This document shows positions 7,189-22,243 of a stretch of 40,395 nucleotides of DNA, piece by piece. Each line of letters begins with the position of its first letter. Within the stretch, counting starts at the first letter, position 1. This DNA is from Clostridiales bacterium (GTDB lineage Bacteria > Bacillota > Clostridia > Saccharofermentanales > Saccharofermentanaceae): assembly GCA_017550385.1 (NCBI GenBank), contig JAFZPJ010000046.1, forward strand, positions 1-40,395, in the 5' to 3' direction. The notes below the pieces were generated by a model that did not search any database, was not told where the DNA came from, and saw only the letters and a list, made by a program, of their open reading frames with translations. Position numbers and translations under genes: made by a program.

Positions 7189-7932
7189 ATGGCTGACGAA
7201 CAGAAGACAGTAGCTGCCGAGGAGGTCGCAGTTAGCGAGGCAGCTCCCAAGAAGGGCGGTATCAGCGAGGCAAAACTCGAGATCATCATCGCTATACTTC
7301 TCGGTGTTACGGCAATACTTATGGCATGGGCAGGCTGGATCAGCTCGCTGCACGGCGGCAACCAGGCTACCAACTACACACAGAGCAACAACCTCTCCGC
7401 AATGGGTAACTCCATGTACAACGAGGCAGCTCAGTACTATATGCAGGACATGCTCCTCTGGAACCAGATCTACGATTATGCTTTCGACGCTGAGATCGCT
7501 AACATGAAGGGCGAGACAGACGAGGCAGACATGATCTATGCCAAGATCGAGACCCTCATGAACGACAACTGCACGGAGGAGTTCTATGATGCGATCGAGT
7601 GGGCATGGGACCAGGATTATGACGCAACGCCTTTTGACAAGGAAGGTTATGTTGATTCCTACTTCGCAGAAGCAAACGCAGTCCTCGATGAGGCAGATGC
7701 GCTCCTCGAGCAGGGTAAGACAGATAATGCAAACGGCGACGCTTACGGCCTCGTATCCGTTATCTACTCTGTAGTCCTGTTCCTCTTAGGTATCGTCGGT
7801 ATCTTCAAGAAGATCCCGAACCGCGTCGTCATCACGATCTTCGCAGTCGTGCTGCTCGTTATCGCAACGATCTTCATGCTTACGATCCCGCTGCCGACAG
7901 GCTTCAACATCATGAGCTACTTCGTACACTGA
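7189..7932 (+). CDS. Membrane protein of unknown function (DUF4337-like layout)
   Basis: A 247-residue protein with an Ala/Glu/Val-rich cytoplasmic N-terminus (1-25), one helix (about 28-48), a long hydrophilic, acidic, mostly helical stretch (about 55-185) and two closely spaced C-terminal helices (about 186-205 and 213-233). This resembles the layout of DUF4337-type membrane proteins, but I see no diagnostic motif and do not assign a function. The middle region is rich in Asp, Glu, Met and Tyr. It has its own promoter and terminator. Its codons favour GCA and GAG strongly, suggesting high expression. Confidence 0.8.
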   Translation: MADEQKTVAAEEVAVSEAAPKKGGISEAKLEIIIAILLGVTAILMAWAGWISSLHGGNQATNYTQSNNLSAMGNSMYNEAAQYYMQDMLLWNQIYDYAFDAEIANMKGETDEADMIYAKIETLMNDNCTEEFYDAIEWAWDQDYDATPFDKEGYVDSYFAEANAVLDEADALLEQGKTDNANGDAYGLVSVIYSVVLFLLGIVGIFKKIPNRVVITIFAVVLLVIATIFMLTIPLPTGFNIMSYFVH

Positions 7933-7985: not shown

Positions 7986-7995
7986 GTTGGGTGTT

Positions 7996-8231
7996 ACTGC
8001 GACTGTACCGCACGGCAGTACAACTGTAGTAACAAACAGGCGTTTTCGGGGCGAAAATCACTACAACTGTACCGCACGGCAGTACAACTGTAGTAACAAA
8101 CGGGCGTTTTGGGGGCGAAAATCACTACAACTGTACCGCACGGCAGTACAACTGTAGTAACAAACGGGCGTTTTGGGGGCGAAAATCACTACGACTGTAC
8201 CGCAGAGCAGTACAACTGTAGTAACAAACAG
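7996..8231. repeat. Tandem repeat array 1, 64-bp unit, about 3.7 copies
   Basis: Units start at 7996, 8060, 8124 and 8188 (last one incomplete); the period is exactly 64 bases and units are nearly identical. Each unit holds a long inverted repeat, ACTACAACTGTAC...GTACAACTGTAGT, followed by a second hairpin region; in the first unit this is a perfect TTTTCGGGGCGAAAA (8043-8057). The array lies between the terminator of the rightward gene at 7189 and the stop of the leftward histidine kinase (8240). The stretch has no gene. The same 15-base hairpin occurs, reverse-complemented, in a second array at 21047-21308. Confidence 0.95.
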
Positions 8232-10724: not shown

Positions 10725-13295
10725 ATGAATAATCAGTTGAAGACACTTATTCTGAACCTCACCGCGACATTTATCCTGATGGCGCTGCTCGTCACTTATA
10801 CGACGATGCAGATGTACAGATCTTCATATAAACACGTCTACGAGCTCGGCAACGATAAGACGGCTGCGATATCCGCAGACCTCGAGAACTACCTGGAGAC
10901 CGCGCGCTCGGTGCTCTGGGTCGCTGCCGATACGGTCGACCACATGTATACCGAAGGTGCGACGAACGACGAGATCCGCGAGTATCTCATCCGCGAGTCG
11001 ACCAACACCGCATCACAGTTCGATGAGACATACACGGGCATCTACGGTGTCATCGACGGCGAATTCGTCGACGGCGTCGGCTGGATACCTCCGGATGATT
11101 ACGACCCTACGGTAAGGGACTGGTACAAGGATACGGTTGCCGCGGGCGGACAGCCTCTGGTCGTATCGCCGTATGTCGATGCGCAGACCGGCAATGTCAT
11201 CATCTCGGTATGCAAAGCGCTCTCGAATAACGACAACGTTCTCGGTCTTGACCTGACGCTCACGGGCGTCCAGGAGACAGTAGAGCAGACACAGATAGAC
11301 GGCAACGGATATGCGTTCATCCTTAATTACGACGGTACGGTCGTGGCGCATAAAGACGCCGGAGAGAACGGCAAGAACTACAGCGAGATCGCCGACAAAT
11401 CCGAGCTGTTCAAAGAGATAATGGAGACCGGCAAAGGCAACTTCGAGATGGAGATAGACGGCAAGATGTGCACGGTCTTCGTCGATGACGTCTCGGACCA
11501 GTGGCACCTGGCGATCGTGGTCGAGTCGGATGCTCTGTTCAGGCCGACGAGGAACGTGCTCGTGGTGAGCGTTCTTGTGGGACTGCTCGTTTTCGCGCTG
11601 CTGTCGACGTTCTATATCCTGAACTTCAGGCACGAGCATAAGATCAACATGCGTCTCGAGGAGATGAAGGCGAACGAGCGTCAGAGGGAGTACGAGGCGA
11701 AAGTGCTGGCGCTCGAGAAGGCTGCCGCCGACAGCGCGAACAAGGCCAAGAGCGACTTCCTCGCGGACATGTCGCACGAGATAAGAACGCCCATCAACGC
11801 AGTCCTCGGCATGAACGAGATGATCCTCAGAGAGTCGGACGACGACCAGATCCTGGAGTATTCCTCGAACATCAAGAGCGCAGGCAACAACCTGCTGTCG
11901 ATCATCAACAACATACTAGATTTCTCGAAGATCGAAGACGGCAAGATGGCGCTGGTTCCGGTGGAGTTTGCGACGAGCGAGCTCATGTATAACCTGGTGA
12001 ATGCGATAAGCGAGCGTGCAAGATCCAAGGGGCTCGAATTTAATATAGACGTAGATGAATCTGTTCCGTCAAAGCTCTACGGCGACGATGTCAGGATAGG
12101 TCAGGTCGTGGTGAACCTCCTTACCAATGCGGTCAAATACACAGAGTCGGGAAGCGTTACGCTGCGCGTGAAGAACAACGGCACATCTGACGGCAACGTC
12201 AAGCTGAGGTTCGACGTCATCGATACCGGCATCGGAATCAAGGAAGAGGACTTAGACAAGCTCTTCGAGTCGTTCAAGAGGATCGAGGAGAAGCGTAACC
12301 GCCACATCGAAGGCACGGGTCTCGGCATCTCAATAGTGTGTAAGCTCCTTGAGATGATGGACAGCAAGCTGGAAGTGGAGAGTCAGTACGCGATAGGTTC
12401 GACATTCGGCTTCGACCTGACGCTCAAGGTGGTCGATCCCGAGCCGGTCGGCAAGATCGACGACAGGAGGAAGAATGTCCGCAGGGAGAGGGATGATACA
12501 AGGCACATCTACGCTCCGGACGCGAGAGTCCTGATCACTGACGATAACGGAATGAACCTCAAGGTCGCCATTAACTTCATGAAGATCTTCGGCATCACGC
12601 CCGTTACATGCTCGTCCGGAACCGAGGCGATCGAGCTGGTGCGTAAGGACAGGTTCGATATCATCTTCTTGGATCACATGATGTCGCACATGGACGGCAT
12701 CGAGGCGCTCGGCGTGATGAAGCAGGAGAACATCCTGAACGGTGCTGCCGTCATCGCTCTTACCGCGAACGCAGTCGTCGGTGCAGAAGAGCAGTACCTG
12801 GCAGCAGGGTTCGACGGATACCTGTCCAAACCGGTCACGATAGAAGACTTTGAGAAGACGCTCAAGCAGTATCTGCCGGAAGGCCGCATCGTCAGGAAGG
12901 ATGATATCCCGGAAGATCACTTAAATAATAAAGAAATTAAGAATATGACAATTGACACAGCCCGGGAAATAGGGCTTAATGTTGATAGTGCACTTGTCTT
13001 TGCATATGGGGATGAAGACTTCTATCTGGAGTTGCTTACGGATTATGCCAAGGAAGCTTCGGATAGGTGCGCTGAGCTGACCTCGTACCTTGAGCAGGGT
13101 AATCTCAAGGATTACGAGATACTGGTGCATTCGATCAAGAGTTCTTCCAAGACGGTCGGAGCAGATGATCTGTCCGAGCTTGCCAGAGATCTTGAGATGG
13201 CTGCTAAGAGAGGCGATCTGGATTACGTCAGGCAGCATCACGACGCGCTCGTATCAGGGTCAGAAGAGTTGACAGTAAGGATAATAGGAAACTGA
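10725..13295 (+). CDS. Hybrid sensor histidine kinase with dCache sensor, receiver and HPt
   Basis: An 856-residue phosphorelay protein. Order: TM (7-29), extracellular dCache domain (about 35-272), TM (275-299), coiled linker (about 305-340), HisKA with His351 in DMSHEIRTP, HATPase (DTGIGI 500-505, GTGLGI 530-535), receiver with Asp650 and Lys702, and HPt with His802 in VHSIKSSSK. The distal Cache module has Y126, R131, W133, Y134, Y150, D152 and D176, matching in order and spacing the amino-acid-binding motif I recall for dCache_1 receptors, so an amino acid ligand is predicted. No Shine-Dalgarno precedes the ATG. The linker before HPt (about 730-745) is AT-rich compared with the rest. Confidence 0.95.
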   Translation: MNNQLKTLILNLTATFILMALLVTYTTMQMYRSSYKHVYELGNDKTAAISADLENYLETARSVLWVAADTVDHMYTEGATNDEIREYLIRESTNTASQFDETYTGIYGVIDGEFVDGVGWIPPDDYDPTVRDWYKDTVAAGGQPLVVSPYVDAQTGNVIISVCKALSNNDNVLGLDLTLTGVQETVEQTQIDGNGYAFILNYDGTVVAHKDAGENGKNYSEIADKSELFKEIMETGKGNFEMEIDGKMCTVFVDDVSDQWHLAIVVESDALFRPTRNVLVVSVLVGLLVFALLSTFYILNFRHEHKINMRLEEMKANERQREYEAKVLALEKAAADSANKAKSDFLADMSHEIRTPINAVLGMNEMILRESDDDQILEYSSNIKSAGNNLLSIINNILDFSKIEDGKMALVPVEFATSELMYNLVNAISERARSKGLEFNIDVDESVPSKLYGDDVRIGQVVVNLLTNAVKYTESGSVTLRVKNNGTSDGNVKLRFDVIDTGIGIKEEDLDKLFESFKRIEEKRNRHIEGTGLGISIVCKLLEMMDSKLEVESQYAIGSTFGFDLTLKVVDPEPVGKIDDRRKNVRRERDDTRHIYAPDARVLITDDNGMNLKVAINFMKIFGITPVTCSSGTEAIELVRKDRFDIIFLDHMMSHMDGIEALGVMKQENILNGAAVIALTANAVVGAEEQYLAAGFDGYLSKPVTIEDFEKTLKQYLPEGRIVRKDDIPEDHLNNKEIKNMTIDTAREIGLNVDSALVFAYGDEDFYLELLTDYAKEASDRCAELTSYLEQGNLKDYEILVHSIKSSSKTVGADDLSELARDLEMAAKRGDLDYVRQHHDALVSGSEELTVRIIGN

Positions 13296-13308: not shown

Positions 13309-14745
13309 ATGGCTGAAATGATGGGCGGTATAACCGGCTGGTTTATCGCGGACAAGATCGTAGCTTATCTTTTTATTGTTCTTTTCATCTGGGGCGCGTC
13401 GAACAAGTTCGGCAAGAAGGGCGAATTCAACGATGATTTTACCAGCCTCGACAACATGAAGTCCCTTCAGGGTTTTGCAGCGCTCGGCGTCATACTTCAC
13501 CACATATCGCAGGAATATTTCTTCCAGGAAGAAGGCGTGCTGTCGCTCTTCGTCAATGCGGGCGCATACTTCGTCGCACTGTTCTTCTTCTGCTCGGGAT
13601 ACGGCCTTATCAAGAGCCTTGATACCAAGAAGGATTACCTCAAGGGATTCATAGGCAAGAGAGTCGTCAAGTCTCTCGTTATCCCGTTCTATGTCAACGT
13701 CATCTTATACGGCCTCATGATGTTCATCGTCAAGTGGCCGCTGGAGCCCTTGCAGTGGGTAACCAACTTCCTGGGCATCACCATGATGAACAGATATGCG
13801 TGGTTCCCGATCGTTCTTGCGCTTCTTTACATCGTGTTCTATATACACTTCAGGAACTTCAAGAACCGCAAAGCCGGCTTTATCGTCATTGGCATATTCA
13901 TCATATGCCTGGGCATCCATACATGTATCTGCGGACACGTCGCATGGTGGGCCGGACCGGATAACTGGTGGATGGACGATAATTTCTGGGAGACTGATTT
14001 CAAGTGGTGGATGGATGAGCAGATCTTCTGGTTCAACGGTGAGTGGTGGGCCAACTCGGCGCCCGCGTTCCTTACGGGACTTATTTTCGCGAACTACGAG
14101 AAGAAGATCGTGGCGTTCTTCAAGAAGAAGTATGTCCTCAAGCTGCACATTCTCATCGTGATAACGCTCCTCCTCGGAATGCTGAACAATTACGGTCAGG
14201 CTGAATTCGGTTACTGGACTGAGTGGGAGGGGAACGGACCTGCGATCGGCGATAAGATCGTCACGTACTTTACGCAGATCCCGCTCCTGTTCGTGTTCCC
14301 GCTGCTCGTGTTCGTTGTCATGATGAAGTACCACGTAAGCAACCCGGTATCAAGATTCTTCGGCAAGTATTCGCTGCACACATATCTCATGAACCTGGCG
14401 GCCATAACCATGTGCCGTTTCATCGAGGTGCCTGATGCGCTCGTAATGGTAGGGGACGTGAAGAACAACCTGTTTATCTTTGCGATCGCCGTCATCGTTC
14501 TGTCGGTGCTCCTCGGTATGCTCGAGCACAAGATCACGACTGCCGTGCAGAGCCTGATCTACCGTAAGCCCGCGCCGGTTGCCGTTGCAACATATGTCAG
14601 ACCTTCGCTCCTCGAGGAGGACGGCGAACATACGACAAAGACGAGCCTTGCAGCTGAGATCAAATCTGATGATGCTGCTGATAAGAAAGCTGAAGAGAAG
14701 GTCGAAGCCGAGCCTGCAAAGAAGGCTGAAGAGAAGAAGGAGTGA
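13309..14745 (+). CDS. Acyltransferase-3 family membrane protein (OafA-like)
   Basis: A 478-residue polytopic protein of the acyltransferase-3 family, which O-acetylates surface sugars or other envelope molecules. Helices fill about residues 10-430. Family signs are the early His pair in VILHHIS (61-67), the FFFCSGYGL segment (about 92-100) and the basic GKRVVKSLVIPFY loop. The region about 195-250 is very rich in Trp. The last about 35 residues form a Lys/Glu/Ala-rich charged tail. ATG 13309 follows AAGAGGTG and lies 13 bases after the kinase stop, so it may be cotranscribed with it. The acceptor is unknown. Confidence 0.85.
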   Translation: MAEMMGGITGWFIADKIVAYLFIVLFIWGASNKFGKKGEFNDDFTSLDNMKSLQGFAALGVILHHISQEYFFQEEGVLSLFVNAGAYFVALFFFCSGYGLIKSLDTKKDYLKGFIGKRVVKSLVIPFYVNVILYGLMMFIVKWPLEPLQWVTNFLGITMMNRYAWFPIVLALLYIVFYIHFRNFKNRKAGFIVIGIFIICLGIHTCICGHVAWWAGPDNWWMDDNFWETDFKWWMDEQIFWFNGEWWANSAPAFLTGLIFANYEKKIVAFFKKKYVLKLHILIVITLLLGMLNNYGQAEFGYWTEWEGNGPAIGDKIVTYFTQIPLLFVFPLLVFVVMMKYHVSNPVSRFFGKYSLHTYLMNLAAITMCRFIEVPDALVMVGDVKNNLFIFAIAVIVLSVLLGMLEHKITTAVQSLIYRKPAPVAVATYVRPSLLEEDGEHTTKTSLAAEIKSDDAADKKAEEKVEAEPAKKAEEKKE

Positions 14746-20158: not shown

Positions 20159-21076
20159 ATGACTGTCAAAGAAAGATTCCTCAACAAAGAAAGGTCCTGG
20201 ACCGACATCCTGCCGCTCGTCTTCGTACAGGCTTACCTGTGGATGAACGCAGGCGGCATACTCTCACACCTGATACAGGCTGACAAGTGGAGCAGGCTGT
20301 TCGTAAACCGCATCAAGATCGCCACGGATATGGGCGATTACATGTTCTCGATAGGCTTCTGGGCCGCCATGATCGCTGCTCTAGTCATCTTCAGGAAGAA
20401 CAGGCCGCTGCTGCGGGTGCTTTGTCCTGAGCGCAAGATCCGCATCCTGACGGGTTCTGTCATTGGCCTTGTGCTCGGCTTTGCGCTCAACGCATCTGTT
20501 ATCGCAGGCGCAGTCCTCACCGGATGCCTGACGCTTACTCCCGCCAATGCCAAGCCGCTCACCGTGATCGGCTACCTGATAGCGATCTTCTTCCAGGCTG
20601 GCGGCGAAGAACTCATCTGCAGGATGTACATCATGGGCAAGTTAAGGAGAAGATATAAGAGCCCGGCAGTCGCCATCGTCGGCAACGCACTCTTCTTCCT
20701 GATATTCCACCTCGGCAATCCCGGCATCAACGCGGCGAGCATAATCAACCTCCTCGCTGCCGGTATCATGTTCTCGCTCATAGTCTATTACTCCGGGAAC
20801 ATCTGGACCGCCATCGGTCTGCACACCGCGTGGAACTTCACTCAGGTGGTCCTTTTTGGTCTGCCCAACAGCGGCGTCGAGTCCGTGTACTCCATATTCA
20901 AAGTGGAGCAGGCTTGTGACGGGTTCTTCTTCGACAGCGGATTCGGAGTCGAGGGCACATGGGCGGCAGCTATCCTTATGTGCGTAGTGGCGGCTGGTGT
21001 GATCTTGTTTGCGAAGACGGGCAGGAAAGGTCTTTCGAACCGTTATGACAGCAAGTTGGACTGCAGCGCTGTCTGA
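20159..21076 (+). CDS. CPBP-family intramembrane glutamic protease
   Basis: A 305-residue polytopic protein of the CPBP (CAAX protease and bacteriocin-processing, Abi) family. The catalytic motifs are complete: E150-E151 with R155 in GGEELICR (148-155), His184 in LIFHLGN and H222/N226 in LHTAWNF. The start at 20159 is chosen for ACGGAGG 6 bases upstream; an in-frame ATG 30 bases earlier has no ribosome site. Substrates are unknown; family members process prenylated proteins or peptides, or confer immunity. The last codons (RYDSKLDCSAV) are encoded by the first unit of repeat array 2, so the C-terminus may have been altered by repeat insertion. Confidence 0.9.
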   Translation: MTVKERFLNKERSWTDILPLVFVQAYLWMNAGGILSHLIQADKWSRLFVNRIKIATDMGDYMFSIGFWAAMIAALVIFRKNRPLLRVLCPERKIRILTGSVIGLVLGFALNASVIAGAVLTGCLTLTPANAKPLTVIGYLIAIFFQAGGEELICRMYIMGKLRRRYKSPAVAIVGNALFFLIFHLGNPGINAASIINLLAAGIMFSLIVYYSGNIWTAIGLHTAWNFTQVVLFGLPNSGVESVYSIFKVEQACDGFFFDSGFGVEGTWAAAILMCVVAAGVILFAKTGRKGLSNRYDSKLDCSAV

Positions 21077-21308
21077 GGTGCTGTATTTTGACCGGCAATA
21101 AGGGTGTTCTGACAGCATACCGCACTGCGCCGCTGTCCTTACTGCTGTATTTTCGCCCCGAAAAGAGTTGTTCTGACAGCAAGTTGGACAGCACCGCTGT
21201 CTGTACTGCTGTATTCTAACTGCCGGAAAGGGCAATTTGACAGCAATCCGCACAGCAACGCTGTTTATATTTATAGACACATATCAATGTGTTAAGTTGC
21301 TGTCAAAT
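21047..21308. repeat. Tandem repeat array 2, 64-bp period, four diverged units
   Basis: Units begin with GACAGCA at 21047, 21111, 21175 and 21239, spaced exactly 64 bases. Conserved parts are GACAGCA, then GCxxCGCTGTC, then CTGCTGTATT; the roughly 20 bases after CTGCTGTATT differ between units. Unit 2 contains TTTTCGCCCCGAAAA (21150-21164), the exact reverse complement of the hairpin in array 1. Within each unit ACAGCA...TGCTGT and ACAGC...GCTGT can form nested stems. Unit 1 overlaps the 3' end of the CPBP gene; unit 4 blends into the promoter of the next gene. Besides the array and promoter, this 300-base gap has no gene. Confidence 0.9.
21235..21308. repeat. Long structured inverted repeat in unit 4
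   Basis: ATTTGACAGCAA (21235-21246) and TTGCTGTCAAAT (21297-21308) are a perfect 12-bp inverted repeat. Inside are two smaller perfect hairpins, ACAGC/GCTGT and ACACAT/ATGTGT, so the 74 bases can fold into a junction with two arms. Confidence 0.8.
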
Positions 21309-21327
21309 ATCAAATAAGTGTTATAAT
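21297..21327 (+). promoter_or_regulatory. Promoter of the second CPBP gene
   Basis: Extended -10 TGTTATAAT (TATAAT 21322-21327) with TTGCTG at 21297-21302 as a weak -35 (19-base spacer). The -35 lies in the right arm of the 12-bp inverted repeat, so folding or protein binding there could affect initiation. Confidence 0.6.
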
Positions 21328-21379: not shown

Positions 21380-22243
21380 ATGAAAACTAAGAAACATGCA
21401 GTTCTCGATCATCCGATACTTGCATATGCTTTGTTCGCACTGTTGGTTGTCATCGTATCATCGACAGCATCGACTCTTATCGACACACCGCTTGCCTATG
21501 TCCTTCCCGGATACGGCTCGGAGCTCGAATACAACGGGATCAAGGTGATGTCGGCATCCGGCGTCGGCACGGCGGTCGGCGCAGTATTATGCGTTCTTAT
21601 CTTTTGGCTTATCTTCCGCAAGGAATTCAACGGCATGCTCAGGGGCAAGTACCTGCTTACGGGACTTCTCCTTCTCCTGCCGTTCCTGATCTTCCACTAC
21701 TCCGGAAGCGTCGTCAGCTGGGTACAGTTCGGTACTGCCAGCGTATTCATCGCATTCCTCAGGGCAACCGCTCCCGGCTTTATGGAGGAGATAGCCTTCA
21801 GAGGCTTAGGCGTTGCCAACTACATGCGCGTCAAGAACAATGATTCCGGCATCATCAAGATCTTCTGGATCTCATCCGCCGTGTTCGGTTTTGTACACAT
21901 GCTCAATGTCTTTGCCGGCGCGCCGCTTCTCATCAGCATTATCCAGTCCGTCTATGCGATGGGCGTCGGAATGACATTATGTGCCGTATATCTGCGCACG
22001 GGCAATCTCTGGACGACCATCATCGCTCACCTTACGGTCGACTTCATGGAGTTCATCCGTGCCGACCTCGGTTCCAGCGGCGGCGTCATGCTCGGCATGG
22101 GCATCGGCGACTGGATCACGATCGCAGCAGGTGCTTTCGCCGCGTTCTGGGGTCTCTACCTCATCAGGAAGTCCAAGCGTCAGGAGATCATCGACCTCTG
22201 GAACGAGAAGTGGCCGAAAGCAGAGGAGACTGCTGCTGCCTGA
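21380..22243 (+). CDS. CPBP-family intramembrane glutamic protease
   Basis: A 287-residue polytopic protein of the CPBP/Abi family. Motifs: E136-E137 with R141 in MEEIAFRG (135-142), His173 in FVHMLNV and H217/D221 in IIAHLTVDF. About seven helices. The start at 21380 (MKTKKHAV) follows GGAGGGG; an ATG 12 bases earlier lies on top of that site and is less likely. It is only distantly similar to the CPBP protein just upstream, so this is not a recent duplication. Substrate unknown. It is followed by a hairpin and then the PadR promoter, so it is monocistronic. Confidence 0.9.
   Translation: MKTKKHAVLDHPILAYALFALLVVIVSSTASTLIDTPLAYVLPGYGSELEYNGIKVMSASGVGTAVGAVLCVLIFWLIFRKEFNGMLRGKYLLTGLLLLLPFLIFHYSGSVVSWVQFGTASVFIAFLRATAPGFMEEIAFRGLGVANYMRVKNNDSGIIKIFWISSAVFGFVHMLNVFAGAPLLISIIQSVYAMGVGMTLCAVYLRTGNLWTTIIAHLTVDFMEFIRADLGSSGGVMLGMGIGDWITIAAGAFAAFWGLYLIRKSKRQEIIDLWNEKWPKAEETAAA

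Follow-up and report, generated by a model that had tools for sequence, protein, structure and literature searches.

Two arrays of 64-bp units lie in opposite orientation within one 40,395-nucleotide stretch of DNA from a Clostridiales bacterium (contig JAFZPJ010000046.1 of assembly GCA_017550385.1; this whole stretch is referred to as the window), and they raise the question of what such arrays are and what holds their period. The initial annotation had assigned both to one undescribed family, and had read the joint change of both stem sides between them as a sign that a structure is selected, in DNA or RNA. Our analysis revealed a real family of gut bacteria, confined in these searches to one genus and apparently undescribed, which is best placed as a variant among the extragenic palindromic repeats. 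The reading we prefer, at a probability of about 0.48, is that of extragenic REP/BIME-like DNA elements made of phased candidate protein-binding sites, which gain and lose units by recombination.

Two arrays of one family

The features of the window are as follows.

7993..8229, minus strand: array 1 (type T1), four inner dyads; matches to profile R1 at 8034-8097, 8098-8161 and 8162-8225
20159..21076, plus strand: upstream gene, Rce1-like (CPBP-type) membrane protease (Pfam PF02517, E=2.1e-19)
21043..21308, plus strand: array 2 (type T2), made of three full units and a degenerate fourth; matches to profile R2; its first word recurs, inverted, at the end
21046..21109, plus strand: T2 unit 1, AGTTGG form, R2 match
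21110..21173, plus strand: T2 unit 2, CCGC form, R2 match; TTTTCGCCCCGAAAA at 21150-21164
21174..21237, plus strand: T2 unit 3, AGTTGG form, R2 match
21238..21280, plus strand: T2 unit 4, right half degenerate, placed by inner-dyad centres
21297..21305, minus strand: closing word TTGCTGTCA of array 2, the inverse of TGACAGCAA at 21046
21380..22243, plus strand: downstream gene, second Rce1-like membrane protease (Pfam PF02517, E=4.7e-16)

Tandem Repeats Finder reported a 64-bp period for both arrays (array 1, 8002-8229, 3.6 copies, 96% matches; array 2, 21079-21264, 2.9 copies, 73% matches), and the inner-dyad centres gave four units in each, 64 bp apart. As first described, TTTTCGCCCCGAAAA of array 2 is the exact reverse complement of 8043-8057 in array 1, and the outer words are ACTACA/TGTAGT in array 1 and ACAGCA/TGCTGT in array 2. 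The shared 15-mer is not an isolated coincidence: it sits at the equivalent place of the unit, 32 chosen full units could be aligned with few gaps, and R1, a profile of array-1-type and T3 units, also detected array-2-type units (C26:155734, E=2.4e-5). The alternation of AGTTGGAC and CCGCAC forms in array 2 was present as well, since units 1 and 3 were identical at 48 of 64 positions and adjacent units at only 42 and 41. A 128-bp higher-order structure was found both in array 2 and at C26:155643.

Array 2 starts at about 21043, inside the final codons of the upstream gene, and the initial 31 bp of its first unit form the last codons and stop of that gene, so that the repeat has turned coding at this site. 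Its closing word overlaps a box which by consensus match is promoter-like (-35 box CTGTCA at 21300-21305, with the last base of TATAAT at 21327), ahead of the following gene. Array 1 begins a few bases beyond the T-run of a terminator-like hairpin that follows the gene at 7189-7932; this hairpin came from a purpose-made scan and was not listed by the other terminator scan.

Unit architecture and distribution

Each unit holds four copies of a word of about 5-6 bp, two direct and two inverted, together with a spacer. The order is word, about 12 bp, word, 3-base loop, inverted word, about 12 bp, inverted word, and a spacer like TTTTCGCCCCGAAAAGGGCCGTTT; the spacer, of about 22 bp, is conserved within a type, and the units stand head to tail in the arrays that were printed and aligned. 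The words go by lineage, being ACTGC/ACAGC in the window's genome (G000) and ACGGC, CAGGC or ACAAGC elsewhere. Type T1, that of array 1, has the words ACTAC, ACTGC, ACCGC and ACTAC, T2, that of array 2, has ACAGC, ACTGC, ACAGC and ACAGC, and T3 has ACTGC/ACCGC. The 57 ACGGC-type units carry ACGGC, ACGGC, GCGGC and then GCGGC or ACGGC, CAGGC-like words occur in G033, G074 and G084, and the word of G023 is GTACAAGC. Conservation of the words within a lineage was high: T2 outer pairs were intact in 22-23 of 24 units, and among ACGGC-type units, which were picked by the profile of that type, LI was kept in 57/57 and LO in 54/57.

The window's genome comprises 1.85 Mb in 61 contigs and is 84.6% complete. 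BLAST with each array returned more arrays on other contigs, and R1 and R2 profile matches gave 15 loci, of which nine are T1 or T1/T3, four are T2 and two resemble T2. Printed in one orientation, all arrays form one family with the three local types, and T3 mixes with T1 inside single arrays (C23, C5, C9). One of the nine T1-group loci, at 35 kb of C17, is a weak and diverged two-unit array (L178:15200-15360) with GTTACTGC/GCAGTAAC words and 65-bp spacing. The T2-type arrays found in this genome lie on contigs C26 and C61 (220,674 of 1,853,307 bases), and T1 elements lie on eight contigs.

Of 85 genomes of the genus, counting the window's own, 6 had matches to R1 and 9 to R3, a model that derives from the ACGGC-type units in G033 (E<=1e-5), or 13/85 for either; since the searches rest on R1, R2 and R3, types with other words were missed, as G023 (R1, 2.1e-5) shows. 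R2 matched 4 of 59 relatives including its own genome (1e-3), with one weak match in G005. In an order-wide sample of 118 genomes that includes genus members, R3 occurred in 5, all of the same Saccharofermentans-like genus (1 of 29 genera), and had no match outside it. An R1 match in G052, a member of another genus (E=0.006, cut-off 0.01), was rejected by eye, as were weak R1 matches in G008 and G052 generally. G033, G074 and G084 hold 14, 10 and 13 dispersed loci; these counts may be lower bounds, because contigs end in or beside arrays (G033:C55 ends at 13863, G074:C17 at 22045) and near-identical copies probably split the assemblies. Rfam 15 gave no match at gathering score in the window, and the open-licence literature searched yielded nothing on arrays like these. 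The protein beside one array is Mbeg1-like (PF11187); by this protein the window's genome falls beside RUG12736 and Saccharofermentans MAGs, classified as Oscillospiraceae.

The 64-bp pitch

We then measured the intervals between units. Among 49 intervals between inner-dyad centres, drawn from five species, 48 measured 64 bp and one 63; the 49 consist of a main set (46/47) and two C23 intervals, with the weak C17 array outside it. Model-boundary intervals below 200 were 64 in 57 of 67 from eight genomes, the others being 59-66 and one 127, for 126 of the 129 R3 matches (the G000 match and two opposite-strand G020 duplicates were left out). All three T1/T3 junctions keep 64. In six composite arrays of ACGGC and CAGGC blocks, 12/12 CAGGC-type and 13/13 ACGGC-type within-block intervals were 64, while the block junctions, with centres taken from anchors, were off it, at about 61, 40, 51, 51, 41 and 41. 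These lengths of about 40-41, 51 and 61 differ from one another by roughly one helical turn, a pattern that is suggestive only because the composite arrays are not independent. Composite arrays of this kind were seen at L189, L185, L216, L223, L227 and L228.

This regularity coexists with great divergence. Over 76 units (78 minus two cut-short ones), the mean difference was 33 of 64 positions, with 19 inside T1 and 23 inside T2. An alignment of 25 orthologous spacers between the window's genome and its relative G006, including a single array-bearing one, covered 2634 bases with 393 mismatches and 113 gap openings, or about 2.7 gap openings per 64 bases. Units so different that nevertheless keep their pitch suggest a length constraint, for unconstrained arrays should have drifted. 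Intervals within an array are not independent, owing to common descent, and the roughly two dozen arrays therefore weigh more than the count of intervals.

A word-blind scan for the four-word geometry gave 37 close pairs in the window's genome, 22 at 64 and 11 at 128; the figures were 5 and 3 of 10 pairs in G006, and 8 and 3 of 22 in G033. By comparison, 467,358 bases of other genera gave 5 pairs, none at 64, 49,343 bases from seven Saccharofermentans-like or allied loci gave one, at 74, and shuffles gave no pair at 64. The geometry was fixed after the arrays had been seen, and most G000 and G006 stretches were picked for holding arrays, C26 being nearly whole; tightened thresholds were used, as loose ones gave many chance pairs. 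The conserved 64-bp pitch with changing words is the best-supported distinguishing trait of the family.

Location and orientation

In the window's genome and G006, with genes from a purpose-made caller, 22 elements with both flanks lay in 16 tandem, 5 convergent and 1 divergent spacers, and 14 of the 16 tandem ones were nearer the 3' end of the upstream gene. Three of 25 listed elements, having no flanking gene, were left out of this count, and the single copies at C17:35251, G006 C19, C4 and C8:17976 never entered it. Five further genomes (G033, G074, G084, G025 and G020) added 18 elements, 13 tandem, 3 convergent and 2 divergent, with 10 of the 13 tandem ones nearer the 3' end and one tie; here 2 of 20 loci lacked a flank, and split rows were merged per locus by eye. 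Pooled, 24 of 29 tandem elements were nearer the upstream gene's 3' end (P=0.0003), and 3 of 40 elements were divergent, as compared with 22.9% of G000/G006 spacers (P=0.010). The sets contain five or more orthologous pairs; with one of each pair removed, seven duplicates in all, the values were 21/25 (P=0.0005) and 3/33 (P=0.038). Judged by spacer length, the divergent deficit among the first 22 elements was weak (P=0.065). Like REP sequences, the arrays are thus extragenic, downstream of genes and rare between divergent ones. Many arrays give the impression of adjoining terminators, but terminator targeting was rejected, since a terminator lay within 40 bp of 9/25 elements, no more than for gene ends generally (89/249).

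Elements occur in both orientations; of the 16 tandem elements scored for this, 8 ran in the same direction as the gene upstream. With respect to GC skew, T1 elements of the window's genome lay opposite the skew strand in 9/9 cases and strict T2 elements with it in 4/4. In G006 strict T2 elements were with the skew strand (3/3) and T1 elements opposite in only 4/8; T2 variants were with it in 1/2. The G000 pattern, all T1 arrays against and all strict T2 arrays with the skew strand, hints at a link with replication.

Phased candidate binding sites

Near-constant spacing, combined with words that change across species, resembles a series of sites for a binding protein more than it does a folded RNA. 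In the preferred reading, each 64-bp unit would present four half-sites to a sequence-specific DNA-binding protein, namely a word, a second word about 12 bp on, and two inverted copies equally spaced. Same-type units lie about six helical turns apart, which would align the bound complexes, perhaps cooperatively, on one face of double-stranded DNA. The mismatch pattern (see below) and the word conservation fit double-stranded half-sites, AC-N-GC in the window's genome, better than an RNA fold, and among mechanisms we infer protein binding to double-stranded DNA to be the best supported. BIMEs are bound by gyrase, IHF or Pol I, and a role in local topology or nucleoid organisation after transcription units has been proposed for them; that would be the likeliest purpose here too.

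Unequal recombination or slippage would add and remove units, one or two at a time. Orthologous arrays differ in unit number: beside pgi the window's genome has three (L009) and G006 one (L032), L010 has three T1 and two T3 units where L035 has one, and L002 has four where L160 has three. At the site of array 1, G006 carries a single T2 unit. In the G006 stretch between the aligned blocks that flank the array 2 site no unit was found, and the flanking genes differ there too.

Several observations count against binding arrays. The ACGGC/CAGGC junctions are off 64 and the weak C17 array is at 65; an array-1 unit folds well as RNA in one strand, and inner mismatches lean towards G-T. Where a genome has several words, either a single tolerant protein or a set of paralogues would have to bind them, and a symmetric site would not need the strand bias of the T1 elements in the window's genome.

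Possible mobile elements

A less likely alternative is that the arrays are selfish miniature elements, REP- or MITE-like, whose four words are recognised by an enzyme encoded elsewhere that copies arrays or units to new places. The many dispersed loci per genome (10 to 14 in the three genomes above) speak for it, as do two further cases. Two loci on different contigs of G084 share a 350-bp composite array, 90% identical, of three ACGGC-type units and CAGGC-type units, as though whole arrays were copied. In G006 contig C11 (end of L170 and L171:33-2530), two T1 copies flank a solute-binding-protein gene, and the neighbours of this locus adjoin in the window's genome, which lacks the gene and both copies.

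Against mobility stands the age of the arrays, as many of them are orthologous between species, and neither a target-site duplication nor a clean empty site could be defined. When ACGGC-type units were compared across loci, mean identity was 0.743 within a genome and hardly lower, 0.729, between genomes. Gene adjacency was broken at 5 of 7 scorable array spacers in G000 and 5 of 7 in G006, versus 34/74 and 31/71 of the others; these counts are few and partly concern the same sites, so we do not claim the arrays as hot spots of gene gain or loss.

Nor did a partner enzyme emerge. The linked transposase of REP type that had been suggested was not borne out: Y1_Tnp (PF01797) was found neither in the window's genome, which is 84.6% complete, nor in any of the 11 array-bearing genomes examined, several of them incomplete, and was present in 16 of 48 genomes outside these 11 (Fisher P=0.026). 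Among six array-bearing genomes, none had an integron integrase (TIGR02249) over the cut-off, only weaker matches such as all 14 controls gave, and none had RTP (PF02334), for which B. subtilis alone rang among the 14 controls. RAYT/Y1, integron integrase and RTP were accordingly dropped as partners in the array-bearing genomes examined.

A possible mutational by-product

It is improbable that the arrays are a functionless by-product of mutation, in which palindromes repair themselves by template switching, tandem copies arise by slippage, and words and unit length are passive. Template switching would change all four words together and slippage would suit the variable unit number of orthologous sites; the clade also has other nested-palindrome repeats, of 50, 53 and 74 bp, and type junctions can lose 64. 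However, the period persists across dissimilar arrays at a rate of gap opening in aligned spacers that should have disturbed it, and the three T1/T3 junctions keep it as well.

RNA fold or double-stranded sites

We compared two-sided changes with shuffles. The T1/T3 set had a two-sided change in 1 of 19 pairs (shuffle mean 1.2), and 447 of 500 shuffles were as high; the covariation score was reached by 76/500 shuffles, and the percentage paired, 90.9 vs 90.3, by 33/500. The T2 set had none in 11 pairs, with 500/500 shuffles as high on every measure (alignment A6, which replaced A5 because five rows were out of phase). RNAalifold on T1/T3 favours a different pairing. RNA covariation was therefore rejected, being without excess inside either set: compensatory changes above background, which mark a structured RNA, were not found within T1/T3 or T2. 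The joint change of both stem sides is a single contrast between two types and loses its force as evidence of selected pairing; what stands of the original proposal is the common family, which R1 and the aligned units connect, and the lack of an Rfam or literature match.

In the outer stem G-T and A-C mismatches were about equal (10 and 11), as were distinct mismatch states over both stems (13 each). Inner-helix cells were G-T in 57 and A-C in 17, and 33 of the G-T cells are one fixed T-G pair of T1/T3; ACGGC-type edge pairs are mostly A-C, in the opposite sense to that pair. Of 24 T2 units, 18 have T-T or C-T as the middle inner pair, and of 31 T1 units, 11 have A-A or T-T in place of an inner A-T pair.

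Folding energies were mixed. The array-1 unit had z -4.7 on one strand and -2.5 on its complement, and both strands of array-2 unit 3 fold (z -3.8 and -4.0), whereas array-2 units 1 and 2 reached only z -1.3 and -1.5, and 0 on the other strand. For these two units, 20 and 14 of 200 shuffles folded as well on the plus strand, and 91 and 97 on the minus strand. A family of structured RNA or of single-strand DNA, in which outer and inner stems with a TTTTCG hairpin form on a transcribed or exposed strand and pairing is selected, is thus improbable despite the strong folds, the stem partners that differ together between types and species, and one terminator-like hairpin per array (shuffle mean 0.6 and 0.5 per region), given the mismatches, the want of two-sided changes within types, the poor folding of array-2 units 1 and 2, and an orientation that follows the upstream gene in only half of the cases.

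Relation to known repeats

Integron attC sites consist of two inverted repeats, one nested in the other, have boxes about 12 bp apart, and stand at gene 3' ends. Our arrays share all three traits, but they have tandem units without genes between them, their GTT/AAC ends stand in reversed order, and no integrase passed the cut-off in 6/6 genomes. RTP-Ter sites of Bacillus are oriented and offer four half-sites to two dimers; the arrays resemble them in both respects, yet are dispersed, and RTP was absent from 6/6 genomes. CRISPR arrays combine a constant repeat with unrelated unique spacers, while here the spacer itself is conserved within a type. MIRU-type repeats are intergenic and tandem, with a unit length similar to 64 bp and a variable unit number. 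The arrays are alike in being intergenic, tandem and variable in unit number, but they are built from double inverted repeats that hold their pitch as the words vary (MIRU-type intergenic tandem repeats are named in a passage of PMC2267715).

The closest likeness is to REP/BIME sequences, which PMC3733652 describes as short, palindromic, extragenic, dispersed, able to cluster, and placed for the most part 3' of coding regions, where the flanking genes run in tandem or converge. The arrays have the same features, being short, palindromic, extragenic, dispersed, clustered and mostly 3' of genes. They differ in that their units, with four words each, stand head to tail at a 64-bp pitch and do not alternate in orientation as in BIMEs. 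They also lack the constant unpaired GTAG/CGTC tag at the palindrome end: the GTAG of T1 lies inside the outer word (ACTAC/GTAGT), and T2 and the ACGGC-type have neither tag as a constant feature. The cognate Y1/RAYT transposase of the GTAG class was not found in the 11 array-bearing genomes, and the arrays belong to a genus of Clostridia and have words that vary between species.

A wider reading

A wider reading, which we regard as rather unlikely, would make the family a genus-wide, undescribed chromosome-organising system: 3'-end arrays of four half-sites at about six turns, read by a fast-evolving DNA-binding protein, with words replaced at all four places in each lineage while pitch, spacer and orthologous sites are kept. 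The usual explanation for extragenic palindromic repeats is a RAYT transposase or an RNA hairpin. This family shows neither signature in the tests run, and conserves its pitch and not its word, so that comparison of species offers a natural experiment on what selects such repeats. It also predicts a lineage-specific DNA-binding protein, which could be retrieved with the arrays as bait.

Nested palindromes of other kinds were also seen in these genomes. At about 101 kb of contig C26 of the window's genome (L131:1034-1132) there is a 50-bp tandem repeat of nested palindromes with the different word TTAGCAAA, and G019 has, at a contig end (L147:8442-8662), a 53-bp tandem repeat with TCATCCCAAA/TTTGGGATGA arms. 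Gene spacers of relatives contain further repeats of this sort, with TTAGAGT, with TTCGCT at 74 bp, and with AGTCTWC (L052 about 2850-2960, L053 about 2840-2960 and L177 about 12860-12990).
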